Shown in pieces: positions 43,613 through 50,794 of a stretch of 64,000 bases of DNA. Where the stretch lies: assembly GCA_945878405.1 (NCBI GenBank), contig CAMCTJ010000008.1, positions 62,001-126,000 on the forward strand, written 5' to 3'. The position numbers were made by a program, and so were the translations under genes. Under the pieces are notes generated by a model, which saw only the letters and a list, made by a program, of their open reading frames with translations, had not been told where the DNA came from and did not search any database. Source of the DNA: Bdellovibrio sp. ZAP7 (lineage in GTDB: Bacteria; Bdellovibrionota; FAC87; UBA2466). Positions within the stretch are counted from its first letter, which is position 1. Every line of letters begins with the position of its first letter.

Positions 43613-43639
43613 AAAGAAGATAGCCCAGCTATCTTCTTT
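43613..43639 (+). terminator. Rho-independent terminator of the nucleoside operon
   Basis: A perfect 12-base stem (AAAGAAGATAGC / GCTATCTTCTTT) with loop CCA, 32 bases after the amidohydrolase stop. The stem ends in three T's, so it is likely a terminator even though the U-tract is short. It separates this operon from prkA. Confidence 0.7.
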
Positions 43640-43704
43640 CAAACACTTCGTTCAGGCCCTTAACTCTCAAGTTGAAATTTGATCGAAATCCTAAAGGAGA
43701 ATCC

Positions 43705-45780
43705 ATGTCTTCCTCAGCCCTGGATATCAAAAGCTTCATTGGCGAACTGCAAGATCTTGATCGGTATAAAAAGATTAACTGGGAGGGCACGCTCCAACAA
43801 TATATTGAACTAGTTAAAGAGCGGCCCGAGATCTCCAGAAATGCCTTTCAGCGCCTTTATGACTGTATCAATCATTTCGGCTCTGAGGATTATGTAGAAT
43901 TCAAAAAGAAAATTACGGCCTATAACTTCTTTAAAGACCCCATAGAAAATGGAAAAGACGCGGTTTTTGGAATTGATGTTCACCTCCAAAAATTAGTAAA
44001 CGTACTGAAAGCGGCGGCGCAAGGTTACGGTACGGAAAAAAGAGTGATCTTACTTCACGGTCCTGTTGGTAGCGCGAAGAGTACGATTGCTCGAATGATA
44101 AAAAAAGGTGTGGAGTGGTACTCGCACACTGATGAAGGAGCAATGTATACCTTCAAGTTTCGAATTGAAAACGACGCACTCGCCCGAGAAATCTTGAATG
44201 GTCAAAAAGAGTTTTCAAGCCCGATGAATGAAGACCCTCTGAAGCTCATTCCGCAGGAGTATCGAAAAAAGATCTGTGAAGAGATCAATCGCGGTCGAAA
44301 AGACGGACACCGGGTAACAATCGATGGCGACTTATCGCCTCCGATGCAATTCATTTGTGATAAATTGATGCACCACTATGCGGGTGACTGGACCAAAGTG
44401 GTAGATCACGTGGTGATTACCAGACTGCTCCTGTCTGAACGAAATCGCATCGGGATTGGTACCTTCCAACCTAAAGATGAGAAAAACCAGGACTCCACGG
44501 AGCTTACAGGAGATATTAACTATCGGAAAATTGCGGAATATGGTTCCGATTCGGACCCCCGCGCGTTTAACTTCGATGGTGAGTTCAATGTTGCAAATCG
44601 TGGGGTTCTAGAATTCATCGAAGTACTTAAACTCGATGTTGCTTTCCTCTACGACCTCTTAGGGGCTTCTCAGGAACATAAAATCAAACCTAAGAAGTTT
44701 CCTCAAATGGATATTGATGAAGTAATCATTGGGCATACTAACGAACCCGAGTATCGAAAGCTCCAAAACAACGAATTTATGGAAGCTTTAAGAGATCGTA
44801 CGGTGAAGATTGATATTCCCTACTGCACGAAGCTCGTGGAAGAAGTAAAAATTTACAAGAAGGACTTCAACCCAAGAAAAATTAAAGCCAGTATTGCACC
44901 CCACACACTGGAAATGGCGAGTATGTGGGCAGTGTTAACCCGATTAGAAGCTCCCAAGAAACACAACCTTTCCCTCTTACAGAAACTCAAATTATACAAC
45001 GGAAAGACACTTCCCGGATTCACGGAAGACAACGTACGTGAACTCAGAAAAGAAAGCGTTCGAGAGGGTATGGAGGGCATTTCTCCTCGTTACATCCAAG
45101 ATAAGATTTCCAATGCATTGGTGGGAACAAAAGATGGAGTCGTTGCAAGTATCAATCCGTTCATGGTTCTTAACGAACTGGAATCGGGCTTGAGAAGCCA
45201 TTCGCTTATCTCATCTGAGGATAAAAGAAAGCACTTCCGAGAATTATTGGCGGTGGTCAGACAGGAGTATGAAGACGTCGTAAAAAGTGAAGTCCAGAGA
45301 GCCATATCAGCAGATGAAGAGGCTATGGCGAGACTCTGCGGAAACTATATCGACAACGTGAAAGCCTACACCCAAAGAGAGCGTGTGAAGAATAAATACA
45401 CGGGTCAGGACGAGGAACCAGATGAAAGGCTCATGCGTTCTGTTGAGGAAAAAATCGATATTCCTGACAGCCGAAAAGATGATTTCAGAAGAGAAATCAT
45501 GAACTACATAGGTGCATTGGCACTTGAGGGCCGTCAGTTCGATTACAAAACAAACGAAAGACTCCACAAGGCTCTTGAGTTGAAGCTTTTTGAAGACCAA
45601 AAGGACACGATCAAATTAACGAGTCTTGTCTCCAATGTGGTGGATGCGAATACCCAGGCAAAAATTGATATCGTCAAAACTCGTTTAATTAAGAACTACG
45701 GATACGATGAGGTCAGCGCAACCGATGTACTTAACTTTGTTGCCTCGATCTTTGCTCGTGGCGATGTGAAACGAAAGTAA
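43705..45780 (+). CDS. prkA: PrkA-type AAA protein (serine kinase/protease-like)
   Basis: A 691-residue protein of the PrkA family, AAA ATPases reported as serine kinases or as ATP-dependent proteases, acting in sporulation, nitrogen starvation and stress together with YeaH/YhbH and SpoVR. The Walker A loop is [16 protein letters not shown] (about residue 118); [31 protein letters not shown] and [15 protein letters not shown] are family-typical blocks. ATG 43705 with AGGAGA just upstream is chosen over an in-frame TTG at 43672. It starts a four-gene rightward set (prkA, yhbH-like, spoVR, receiver-GAF). Confidence 0.93.
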
Positions 45781-45808: not shown

Positions 45809-46912
45809 ATGATAACTGGAATTAAAAGGGACCATCAGCGATTCAAGCAGATCGTTAAAGGCAAGATCAAGCAGAACCTGAAGAAGTATATGACCCAAGG
45901 AGAAATCATTGGGCGTCAGGGGAAGGACTATGTCAGGATACCGGTCCACCAAATCGATCTTCCTCACTTTCGATTTGGTCAACGTCAATCAGGCGGTGTG
46001 GGCTCTGGCGATGGCCAACCGGGTACGTCACTGGGCCAAGAGGGTGAACAAAACGGGCAAAAAGCTGGGAGCTCTGAAGGGGAACATACGTTAGATGTTG
46101 AAGTTACGCTTCAAGAACTTGCCGAAATGCTCGCTCAAGAATTAGAGCTGCCGCGCATTCAGCCGAAGGGTCAGGGGTCCCTCTCCTCACAGAAAAATAA
46201 ATATACTGGGATTCACAATGTCGGTCCGAACAGTCTCCGTCACCTCAAACGAACCTACCGAGAAGCCTTGAAACGGCAGATCATTTCAGGACTCTACGAT
46301 CCCAAAAACCCGGTCATTGTTCCTATCAAGAGAGATTTTCGGTTCCGCACTTGGAAAAATATTCAAAAGCCCCAAAACAATGCTCTGATTGTCTATATGA
46401 TGGACGTCTCTGGAAGTATGGGGGATGAACAAAAAGAAATCGTAAGAACCGAGTCATTCTGGATCGATACTTGGATTAGAAGCAATTATAAAGACATTGA
46501 TATTCGATACATTATTCACGATGCTGCTGCCCGTGAAGTAGACGAAAACACTTTCTACCACACTCGTGAGAGTGGCGGGACCCTCATCAGCTCGGCGTAC
46601 AAGCTCTGCCTCGATTTAATCTCCAAGGAATACCCAATTGATGAATGGAACATCTACGTGTTTCACTTTAGTGATGGGGACAATTGGTCAGCCGAAGATA
46701 CAAAACTCTGTGTAGATCTTTTAAAAGCGGATTTGGTACCGAAATGTAATTTATTCTGCTACGGGCAAGTTGAGAGTCGTTATGGTAGTGGCCAGTTCAT
46801 TAAGGACCTCATGGAAAATTTCCAAGAGGAAGGTCGACTAGTAACTTCCAAAATTGAAAATAAAGAAGCTATTTACCGCTCTTTGAAAGAGTTTCTGGGA
46901 AAAGGCAAATGA
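45809..46912 (+). CDS. YhbH/YeaH family (DUF444) vWA-like protein
   Basis: A 367-residue member of the DUF444 family that is nearly always paired with prkA and spoVR. The N-terminal region is basic ([20 protein letters not shown]). The C-terminal half has a von Willebrand A-like fold with [12 protein letters not shown], a complete MIDAS-type DxSxS at about residues 199-203, and a second [11 protein letters not shown] element. The role is unknown; MIDAS proteins often bind partner ATPases. AAGGAA precedes the ATG and the stop overlaps the spoVR start (ATGA). Confidence 0.92.
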
Positions 46913-48405
46913 GGCACCAATTACCACCAGAATTGCACAAGGCCCATCAGGAAATCCGTGAGATCGCGCGGGGATATGGTCTGAATACGTTCGATATCAT
47001 TTTTGAATTGGTCGATTACGATGAGATCAATGAGGTTGCTGCACTCGGTGGCTATCCTACTCGCTACCCTCACTGGCGCTTTGGGATGGAGTATGACTAT
47101 CTCAACAAGTCCTATACTTATGGTCTTCAAAAGATTTACGAATTGGTAATCAATAATGATCCTTGTTATGCGTATCTACAAAAGGGCAATCCAGTCGTAG
47201 ACCAAAAGCTGGTCATGGCCCACGTTTATGGTCACTGTGACTTTTTCAAGAACAATATGTGGTTTTCACAGACCAACCGAAAAATGTTGGACGAAATGGC
47301 AAACCACGCAACTCGAATTCGTGAGTTTCAAGATCGCTTAGGCGTAGAAGTAGTAGAGAATTTTATTGATCAGTGTCTCTCAATCGATAATTTAATTGAT
47401 CAGTACTCAGTATTTAAAACCGCCACAAACACGCAGAAGCCCAGCCTGTTGTTAGAGGAACGAGAATCAGAAACTCCGACCAGCGCCGGAAGATTCCAGA
47501 GCAAGGATTATTTAGAAAACTTTGTCAATCCTCGATCCTATATTGACGAACAAGAAAAGAAGATCAAAGAAGGGCAAGACAAGCTAAGAAGGTTTCCCCT
47601 CAAACCAGAGCGAGATGTGCTTGCCTTCCTCATTAACTTTGCTCCGCTTGAAGGGTGGCAACAGGAAATCTTGTCGATTGTAAGAGAAGAAGCCTATTAT
47701 TTTGCTCCCCAAGCGGCAACGAAGATCATGAACGAAGGCTGGGCCAGTTACTGGCACTCAACGATCATGACTCAACATGTTCTCAAAGATTCTGAAGTGA
47801 TTGATTATGCGGATCACCACAGCGGAACGGTCAGCAGTCGGCCCGGGCAGCTGAATCCCTACAAAATGGGGATCGAGCTTTTTAGGGATATAGAGGAGCG
47901 GTGGAATAAGGGTAAATTTGGAAAAGAATACGATGAGTGCGAGGATGCCGGCGTAAAAGAAAAGTGGGATAAACAGGTAGGTCTCGGACGCCAAAAGATT
48001 TTCGAGGTAAGAAGACTACATAACGATGTTACTTTCTTAGATAGCTTTTTAAATGAAGAGTTTTGCGTTCAACAAAAGCTATTCACCTACGGGTTTAATC
48101 GCAGAACTGGCCAGTATGAGATCGTTGATAGAGACTGGAGAAAAGTGAAAAACCAACTGTTGTTTTCACTCTCTAACTTTGGACAGCCCATCATTCTCGT
48201 TGAAGACGGAAATTTTCAAAATCGGGGCGAGCTGCTCCTCGTTCACCAACACGAGGGTTTAGATCTCGAATTCGACAAAGCGACTGAGACGATTAAAAAC
48301 ATCTTCTCACTTTGGGGAAGGCCCGTTCACCTGATGACCAAATATAACTCACAAGCAAAATTGTTGAGTTATGACGGTAAAGAAATTCACGAGAAAGATG
48401 CGTAA
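46909..48405 (+). CDS. SpoVR family protein
   Basis: A 498-residue protein with the family features [26 protein letters not shown]-like segment (here [16 protein letters not shown]) and an HHSGTV stretch, followed by [17 protein letters not shown]. SpoVR proteins work with PrkA and YhbH in spore cortex formation in Bacillus and in stress responses of Gram-negatives; the molecular activity is not established. It overlaps the previous stop by four bases, so the three genes form one translational unit. Confidence 0.93.
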
Positions 48406-48424: not shown

Positions 48425-49411
48425 ATGAATGCTTCTGAGACAAAAGAGAAAATGCCCAAAAGATTGATTTTGGGAGAAATGTCAGCCACAAAGTTTTCGA
48501 TCATTTCTGATTGGCTCAAGAAAGACAATGTGGTGGTAGATTTTGCAAACGATGCTGAACTCCTCATCGAAAAAATTTCGGAGGAATCGTACCAGCTCTG
48601 CGTGGTCAATTGGTTATTAGGCGGAATAGGGCCTTTTGAACTAATCAGAAAAATTCGCTCCAGTTCTAAGAATCCCGACGTAAAAATCATGGTGGTTTCC
48701 AGGCAGGTCCAAAAGGTTAATATTCAAAATGCTATTTCAGCGGGAGCCCATGATTTTGTGGCAGAACCTTTTGAAAATGAAGTGGTGTTGAAGCGGATTC
48801 TTTATCACCTATCGCCCCAAAGCACGATGGACGCATCCGAATATGAGGATCGGGAAATCTCAAATAATGACGAATTGGAGCTTGTGAATCTATGCCTTGA
48901 AGTTTGTGAGAAATTAAGCAGAACGGAGAGGGGCCAGGAGCCGCACTCGCTCCATGAGGCAGTGAGTAAAATTGGCCAGGCTCTGGGTTCTAATCGCACT
49001 TCTCTTGTCATCGCTGATGTGGGAGAAACGTCAGGAGTCGTATTAGCCAGCAGTGATGATCCGAGCTTTCACAACTTTCCTATCTCCTTAGATAAGTACC
49101 CGGAAATCCAGCATGTAGTCTTTTCGGGAAAGGTGGTCCTCATCCCAGACGTCACTGCGAATACCCTGACTCATGAAATCAATAAAAAGGTTAAGTCGAT
49201 TCCCATTGGTTCGTTATTGGTTTTTCCAGTTAGGTATCAAAATGAGGTCATTGGAGTACTGACCATACGTCGTCCAAAAGCCAGTGAAATGCCATCTTAC
49301 GATAAATTACGGGTGTTACAGGCTCTTGCAAACCTGATGGCTGCCCAGTCAAATATTCAACTTTTACTCCGCAAGATTTATCGAGACCATCAACGGACTG
49401 GAACGGAATAA
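48425..49411 (+). CDS. Degenerate receiver (pseudo-REC) plus GAF domain protein
   Basis: A 328-residue protein 19 bases after spoVR, with GGAG upstream of the ATG. Residues ~12-125 follow the response-regulator receiver pattern, but the phospho-accepting Asp is replaced by Asn (CVVNWLLGG, N62), the conserved Lys by Glu (FVAEPF, E114) and the acidic pair near the N-terminus is reduced to GEM. The Ser of the switch position (VVSRQ, S92) remains. The protein therefore cannot be phosphorylated in the usual way. Residues ~150-320 form a GAF-like sensor domain (GSLLVFPVRYQNEVIGVLTI). No output domain is present. Position suggests it regulates or senses for the PrkA module. Confidence 0.8.
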   Translation: MNASETKEKMPKRLILGEMSATKFSIISDWLKKDNVVVDFANDAELLIEKISEESYQLCVVNWLLGGIGPFELIRKIRSSSKNPDVKIMVVSRQVQKVNIQNAISAGAHDFVAEPFENEVVLKRILYHLSPQSTMDASEYEDREISNNDELELVNLCLEVCEKLSRTERGQEPHSLHEAVSKIGQALGSNRTSLVIADVGETSGVVLASSDDPSFHNFPISLDKYPEIQHVVFSGKVVLIPDVTANTLTHEINKKVKSIPIGSLLVFPVRYQNEVIGVLTIRRPKASEMPSYDKLRVLQALANLMAAQSNIQLLLRKIYRDHQRTGTE

Positions 49412-49504: not shown

Positions 49505-50794
49505 ATGTCTGAATCACATGTTTCGGACAGTGTTATTGTCGGTTGGGAAAATCATCCATTTTACTCCGGCGTCCTGGGCGCCATGGAAAGAGCCGGCCGA
49601 GCTATCCAAATAGATCGAAACGTATTCAATCGTTTGTCTAAACCCAAAAGAGTTCTTTATGTCTCGGTTCCTGTTCGCATGGACGATGGAACGATTCAGG
49701 TTTTTGATGGATTTCGAGTCCAGCACAATACGACTTTGGGTCCTGCTAAAGGGGGAATCCGTTATCACATCGATGTTAATTTAGCGGAAACTTCTGCTTT
49801 GGCCATGCTCATGACTTTAAAAAACTCTCTCGTCGGGCTTCCATTAGGAGGCGCTAAGGGAGGAGTTCGTTGTGATCCTAATAAACTCTCTCGAAAAGAA
49901 AAGCAGGCTTTAACTCGAAGGTACACGACTGAAATATCGATGCTTCTGGGACCAGAGAAGGACATTCCCGCACCAGATATCGGGACCGATGCTCAGACTA
50001 TGGCTTGGTTGATGGATACCTATAGCCAGCAAGTAGGGCATGCAGTGCCCGGGGTAGTGACTGGAAAACCCATCGAAATTGGGGGCTCCTTGGGACGGGT
50101 CGATGCGACCGGACGAGGCGTGGTTTATACGGTAATTGAAGCATCCAAAAGACTTCGTTTAGATTTAAACGACAAAACGCGCGTTGCGATTCAGGGATTT
50201 GGAAACGTTGGGTATCACTCCGCAAAGATTTTGTCTGATGTTGGATGTTCGATTGTAGCTGTCAGCGATGTTTCGGGCGGAATTTATAATACGAAGGGCG
50301 TCGCGATTGAAGAATTGCGCGCCTACATTGCCCAAAACAAAACGGTCAAAGGCTTTCCTGGGGGAGATTTCGTCAGCAATGATGAACTCCTCGAACTCGA
50401 TGTCGATATTTTGATCCCCGCAGCGCTGAGTGGCCAAATCACTGAAAAAAATGCAGATAAGATCAAGTGTAAGATCCTAGCAGAAGGAGCAAATGGGCCT
50501 ACCAGTCCAGAGGCGGACGCCATCCTTTTTGACAAAGGGGTGTTCACGGTCCCCGATATTTTGGCTAACTCTGGGGGAGTGATCGTTTCCTATTTTGAGT
50601 GGGTTCAAGGCTTGCAGAAGTTTTTCTGGAGCGAAAAAGATGTAAATAACAAGCTCTGGGAAATCATTTCGAACGCTTTTAATCGCGTCTATGATTTTCA
50701 CTCTGGAAACAAGATGGACATGCGCCACTCAGCGATTGCTGTTTCGCTTGAGCGGCTTTCTAAAGCCATGCTCTATCGAGGCTTCTTTCCCTAA
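49505..50794 (+). CDS. gdhA: Glutamate dehydrogenase
   Basis: Interconverts glutamate and 2-oxoglutarate. The 429-residue hexameric-class protein has GPAKGGIRYH, LPLGGAKGGVRCDP (substrate lysines), PAPDIGTDAQTMAW and the nucleotide-binding IQGFGNVGYHSAK, followed by ANSGGVIVSYFEW. GTAGGAGG precedes the ATG, and the intergenic stretch before it contains no other gene. Cofactor preference was not judged. It sits convergent with purA with no spacing between the stops. Confidence 0.94.
   Translation: MSESHVSDSVIVGWENHPFYSGVLGAMERAGRAIQIDRNVFNRLSKPKRVLYVSVPVRMDDGTIQVFDGFRVQHNTTLGPAKGGIRYHIDVNLAETSALAMLMTLKNSLVGLPLGGAKGGVRCDPNKLSRKEKQALTRRYTTEISMLLGPEKDIPAPDIGTDAQTMAWLMDTYSQQVGHAVPGVVTGKPIEIGGSLGRVDATGRGVVYTVIEASKRLRLDLNDKTRVAIQGFGNVGYHSAKILSDVGCSIVAVSDVSGGIYNTKGVAIEELRAYIAQNKTVKGFPGGDFVSNDELLELDVDILIPAALSGQITEKNADKIKCKILAEGANGPTSPEADAILFDKGVFTVPDILANSGGVIVSYFEWVQGLQKFFWSEKDVNNKLWEIISNAFNRVYDFHSGNKMDMRHSAIAVSLERLSKAMLYRGFFP

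Follow-up and report, generated by a model that had tools for sequence, protein, structure and literature searches.

A pseudo-receiver-GAF protein kept behind spoVR in the PrkA-YhbH-SpoVR operon of one Bdellovibrionota-like order

The window, which is the whole stretch of 64,000 nucleotides that was analysed, comes from a 2.24 Mb genome (G000) and contains the three genes of the PrkA-YhbH-SpoVR (YeaG-YeaH-YcgB) stress module, a module that is widespread and whose input is poorly understood. The three families recognised by Pfam are adjacent and co-directional, and the locus differs from the usual module by an extra fourth gene, found in this order only, which encodes a pseudo-receiver-GAF protein (RecGAF). 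The original prediction had placed this gene directly after spoVR in a PrkA-YhbH-SpoVR locus; the Pfam matches confirm the trio, and recGAF starts 19 bp past the spoVR stop. The genes and the parts of RecGAF are as follows.

43702..45780, + strand: prkA, with AAA_PrkA and PrkA C-terminal domains (PF08298, E=3.9e-87; PF06798, E=1.7e-87)
45809..46912, + strand: gene for a YhbH/YeaH-type DUF444 protein (PF04285, E=1.2e-87; NCBIfam NF003711, E=9.7e-182)
46909..48405, + strand: spoVR (PF04293, E=2.4e-138), its start overlapping the yhbH stop by 4 bp
48425..49411, + strand: recGAF, pseudo-receiver-GAF protein (N62, E114, M19; S92 and F111 kept)
48458..48811, + strand: pseudo-receiver domain, residues about 12-129 (DSSP of the AlphaFold2 model; Pfam)
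48938..49348, + strand: GAF domain, residues about 172-308 (AlphaFold2 model; Pfam PF01590, E=2.3e-10)
49355..49399, + strand: C-terminal helix, residues 311-325, with the LLRKIYRD motif (AlphaFold2 model; alignment conservation)
49505..50794, + strand: gdh, Glu/Leu/Phe/Val dehydrogenase family (PF00208, E=1.1e-76), 93 bp downstream of recGAF

The prkA reading frame is open from a TTG at 43672, with the ATG at 43702 as the likely start. Between the upstream amidohydrolase gene and prkA, an inverted repeat read by eye (GAAGATAGC-CCA-GCTATCTTC, window 43616-43636) is a possible terminator at the upstream edge of the operon. Neither sigma-70-like promoters nor terminators are in excess in the region. 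At the downstream end, an alignment of the recGAF-gdh gap from three sequences of the window's genus weakly indicates that a CCTAGACG block with a putative -10 box is conserved there and may serve gdh as a promoter of its own.

The recGAF reading frame begins with ATG and encodes 328 amino acids, in which Pfam recognises Response_reg (residues 25-125, E=4.6e-13) and GAF (residues 176-307, E=2.3e-10) and no other domain. The AlphaFold2 model, computed from a family alignment of 49 sequences (mean pLDDT 89.6, pTM 0.86), has a complete (beta-alpha)5 receiver joined by a linker helix to a GAF fold; a C-terminal helix spans residues 311-325, and there is no output domain. A Foldseek search with this model returned the Rec-GAF histidine kinase structures 6oap, 6oaq and 6ob8 as the best whole-length solved matches, along with many receivers. 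The protein thus belongs to the receiver family (PF00072) by profile and fold, with Foldseek in agreement, and to the GAF family (PF01590) by profile and AlphaFold2 model, and the predicted arrangement of a receiver-like and a GAF-like domain with no output domain is borne out by Pfam and the AlphaFold2 model. Inspection of the translation and the alignment by eye did not find the NKFDE motif (N-K-Xn-F-X3-D-E) of cyclic-nucleotide GAF domains in RecGAF, and across the alignment of RecGAF orthologues no Cys or His of the GAF domain is invariant; classical cyclic-nucleotide, haem or metal-cluster binding by this domain is therefore not favoured by the sequence.

In a phmmer alignment to solved receivers, including 3lte, the phospho-acceptor Asp position of RecGAF is occupied by N62 and the conserved Lys position by E114, as originally predicted, and the second of the two metal-binding acids is additionally replaced by M19. 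The first acid is kept as E18, and S92 retains the Ser/Thr position. These changes are shared by the orthologues encoded beside the trio, even though their identity to the window protein is only 41-68%. Position 62 is Asn in 8/8 and position 114 is Glu or Asp in 8/8, which excludes that the window protein is a one-off copy, a possibility the prediction had raised against itself. In all eight, the first metal acid is kept (E18 or Asp), the second has been lost (M19 and others) and Ser/Thr92 and Phe111 are retained. Both members of a sister pair from family f7 have Asn and Glu at the Asp and Lys positions, which brings the loss of Asp and Lys to 10/10. Among the 44 other family rows from the phylum, Asp is retained in 89% and an acid occurs at the Lys position in none.

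RecGAF therefore fits the definition of a pseudo-receiver as a protein recognised as a receiver in which key catalytic residues are gone (PMC12632262), and to judge from these residues it cannot be switched by aspartyl phosphorylation. Like the bacterial pseudo-receivers described in that work, it keeps the PF00072 fold, has lost D, K and DD2 and has kept DD1 and T, and action through interaction or ligand binding is to be expected. It differs from them in its GAF partner, in having no output domain and in the residues gained: in pseudo-receivers Asp usually gives way to Glu and Lys to Arg (PMC12632262), so that Asn together with an acid at the Lys position makes RecGAF a less usual pseudo-receiver. 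The retained positions S/T92 and F111 are those of Y-T coupling, which only 47% of pseudo-receivers keep (PMC12632262).

In each of the eight genomes that carry recGAF beside the trio, the reading frame is open and full-length; about a fifth of the protein's residues are invariant, and its GAF core is well kept. Within the receiver of this clade, beta5, the alpha4-beta5 turn, alpha4 and alpha5 are the more conserved parts (mean 0.70-0.91), and alpha1-beta2-alpha2 are less well kept (0.46-0.54). The C-terminal helix has a mean conservation of 0.64 in the trio-linked clade versus 0.24 among the other family members; L315, R316, I318 and Y319 are invariant in the clade and poorly conserved in the wider family. 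This pattern marks alpha4-beta5-alpha5 and the C-terminal helix as candidate contact surfaces. The dN values are 0.25-0.33 for RecGAF versus 0.05-0.11 for PrkA, YhbH and SpoVR, with synonymous sites saturated; Gdh values, which had been computed on a wrong paralogue, are left out of this comparison.

Full-length, high-scoring relatives of RecGAF are encoded in seven genomes of family f1, the window genome included, and in one genome of its sister family f2. In seven of these carriers recGAF lies directly after spoVR on the same strand, with gaps of -1 to 44 bp. In G003, the remaining carrier, the contig with spoVR and the contig with recGAF each end in one arm of a shared inverted repeat (alignment score 108 versus 31 for the best of 200 shuffles; 10-nt terminal overlap), so recGAF very probably sits behind spoVR there too, past the hairpin. 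With this one case inferred across an assembly break, the domain pair is conserved beside prkA/yhbH/spoVR in 8/8 carriers. The G003 repeat itself (L039:1-93 and L020:3563-3689) is long and imperfect with arms of about 80 nt; it apparently broke the assembly and is possibly a small mobile hairpin element.

The adjacency of recGAF and spoVR persists despite different upstream neighbours in G006 and G003 and different downstream neighbours in G006 and G005. In G003, gdh does not follow recGAF, which is still found with spoVR; gdh follows in the other seven carriers. Since a larger neighbourhood is also conserved in the order amidohydrolase, trio, RecGAF, gdh, purA and serA, the adjacency is in part plain shared descent, and taken alone it is weak evidence.

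The wider Rec-GAF family was collected with a profile, which matched in 62 of the 369 phylum genomes searched; a single-sequence search of genome contigs and an alignment search of viral contigs returned no relatives. In a tree of 63 rows, the eight trio-linked proteins form one clade (support 100/98), the two f7 proteins group beside it (99/96) and nine Myxococcota proteins form a separate group, the tree also holding the 44 remaining phylum rows. Family members from other phylum families have the same architecture and show full-length homology (profile E 1e-66 to 1e-117); unlike RecGAF, they mostly have an intact Asp and Lys or Arg, no conserved C-terminal helix and no link to prkA. In three of them (L029, L030 and L031), which have no output domain, the Asp is intact and the Lys position holds Lys or Arg. 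The L029 gene lies beside secG and divergent from tmk-holB, and flanking genes of similar sizes are found at L030 and L031. The Myxococcota proteins (L079-L087) are homologous to RecGAF in their N-terminal Rec-GAF half and differ in their length of about 540-590 amino acids, in their retained Asp and, in the one that was scanned, in the presence of PAS and HisKA domains in the same protein; their fetched flanks contain no SpoVR gene. The prediction had named homologues lying mostly far from prkA as a finding that would refute it; this is true of the wider family and untrue of the orthologous clade.

PrkA has strong matches (E below 1e-50) in 90/97 phylum genomes searched, with weak or partial matches in the remaining genomes. 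Linkage of recGAF to the trio was found in one order only, in eight genomes, among the phylum genomes searched. Genus g6, which belongs to the same family f1 as most carriers, has no RecGAF match in 6/6 genomes; its trio is kept, and gdh directly follows spoVR in 5/5 genomes with a readable locus. The trio tree joins g6 to the other f1 genomes and leaves f2 outside, so the absence of recGAF from g6 is best read as a loss, and the retention of the trio and gdh there indicates that recGAF is dispensable. G004 has no RecGAF match either, but its prkA contig ends inside the operon, so that this genome counts neither as a carrier nor as a loss. In the two f7 genomes (L041/L174 and L042/L175), prkA is apart from yhbH-spoVR and recGAF is near neither. 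The Rec-GAF tree joins family f7 to the trio-linked clade (99/96) and the trio tree does not, so the N/E state does not trace to simple vertical descent; horizontal transfer or an old paralogue with losses may lie behind it.

The dead phosphorylation site is fixed across the clade, the protein has Rec and GAF folds in the model, and its close linkage to the trio is kept. The explanation we favour, at a probability of roughly 0.45, is that RecGAF is a phosphorylation-independent Rec-GAF adaptor, kept behind spoVR in one order, which tunes the trio in that order only and is driven by a ligand or by dimerisation. The gene would already have stood behind spoVR in the ancestor of one Bdellovibrionota-like order and have been retained as a fourth member of the trio's transcription unit, so that it would be co-transcribed and its product made together with the trio. 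The protein would be a cytosolic adaptor or sensor, blind to aspartyl phosphorylation, which may pair through its GAF domain or terminal helices and may contact PrkA, YhbH or SpoVR via alpha4-beta5-alpha5, the clade-specific C-terminal helix or both. The GAF domain, by ligand binding or dimerisation, would then tune the activity of the module in this lineage only. Against this explanation speak the absence of recGAF from g6, the conserved larger neighbourhood, the f7 pair encoded away from the trio genes and the faster evolution of RecGAF relative to PrkA, YhbH and SpoVR. A more specific version, in which RecGAF with its charge-swapped active site belongs to the PrkA-YhbH-SpoVR machine of one order as a ligand-responsive fourth subunit, we regard as rather unlikely; if true, it would give a direct handle on what switches PrkA-YhbH-SpoVR.

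The prediction had proposed a phosphorylation-independent trigger for the module. The fixed loss of Asp and Lys and the position kept beside spoVR agree with the first part of this proposal, and the distribution contradicts a general trigger: PrkA is widespread, linkage is confined to eight genomes of one order and the gene is absent from g6, so RecGAF as a general component or trigger of the module was rejected. It is probably a lineage-specific add-on to the stress module, and the triggering of the module in other bacteria is not explained by it.

Several other explanations were weighed against the adaptor. Possible, though somewhat unlikely, is that recGAF is a passenger of the regulon, which uses the trio promoter and responds to the same stress while its protein acts on another target. 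Neither the f7 relatives with the same N/E state nor the wider family of 44 rows adjoins prkA or spoVR, the intact member L029 adjoins tmk/holB and secG (Pfam) and g6 retains the trio without recGAF, all of which a passenger would accommodate; it accounts less well for a gene that stays beside spoVR in 8/8 carriers although the flanks have been replaced in several. We consider it improbable that RecGAF serves the downstream enzyme of the glutamate-dehydrogenase family, as its regulator or sensor in nitrogen metabolism, and not the trio. The gdh gene comes after recGAF in seven carriers, and NtrC binds yeaGH, the E. coli counterpart of prkA-yhbH, which is required under nitrogen starvation (PMC4664914). 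However, gdh is 17-346 bp away, farther than spoVR in most carriers, the 93-bp gap in the window holds the genus-conserved block that could be a separate promoter, and the two genes occur apart, recGAF without a following gdh in G003 and gdh without recGAF in g6.

A decoy or scaffold in a phosphorelay, in which RecGAF would bind a histidine kinase or another receiver and modulate its pathway while itself unphosphorylated, is quite improbable. Such roles have been proposed for other pseudo-receivers (PMC12632262), the best fold match to RecGAF is a Rec-GAF histidine kinase and the scanned Myxococcota homologue combines Rec-GAF-PAS-HisKA in one protein and is followed by a histidine-kinase gene. 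Yet no kinase gene was seen beside recGAF in the window or in the sampled orthologous loci, and alpha1, one of the helices that usually face a kinase, is comparatively poorly conserved. Three of five active-site residues are gone, the gene is absent from g6 and it evolves faster than its neighbours, as expected of a degenerating response regulator heading to loss; this is nevertheless hardly credible for a protein that is full-length in 8/8 genomes, in which Asn62 and the acid at 114 never vary and the GAF core and C-terminal helix are well kept. Decay was rejected on the fixation of the altered residues.

No report of a pseudo-receiver-GAF protein beside prkA was found in the open-access literature. 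As a named protein of one lineage, RecGAF offers a bait for contacts of the module and a target for ligand screens. It also represents a traceable case of a pseudo-receiver clade in a new operon, with an intact Asp and Lys in most members of its Rec-GAF family. For PrkA itself, kinase activity was not detected with the B. anthracis protein (PMC13001217).

Two further observations concern the module in other genomes of the phylum. In nine of those sampled, a divergent gene for a PP2C-type phosphatase adjoins prkA or lies within a few genes of it, which makes this phosphatase a possible different signalling partner of the module (L049, L050, L051, L056, L061, L062, L064, L068, L069 and L070; families f8, f9, f13, f16, f17 and f19); L069, the tenth locus, has the phosphatase gene but no labelled PrkA reading frame. 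In G039 (L173:100-5786), a gene for an 801-aa AAA protein with only a weak AAA_22 match is followed by one for a 1094-aa fusion protein, which joins SpoVR-like and DUF444/vWA (YhbH-like) domains behind a hydrophobic N-terminus resembling a signal peptide. This natural fusion suggests that SpoVR and YhbH work together.
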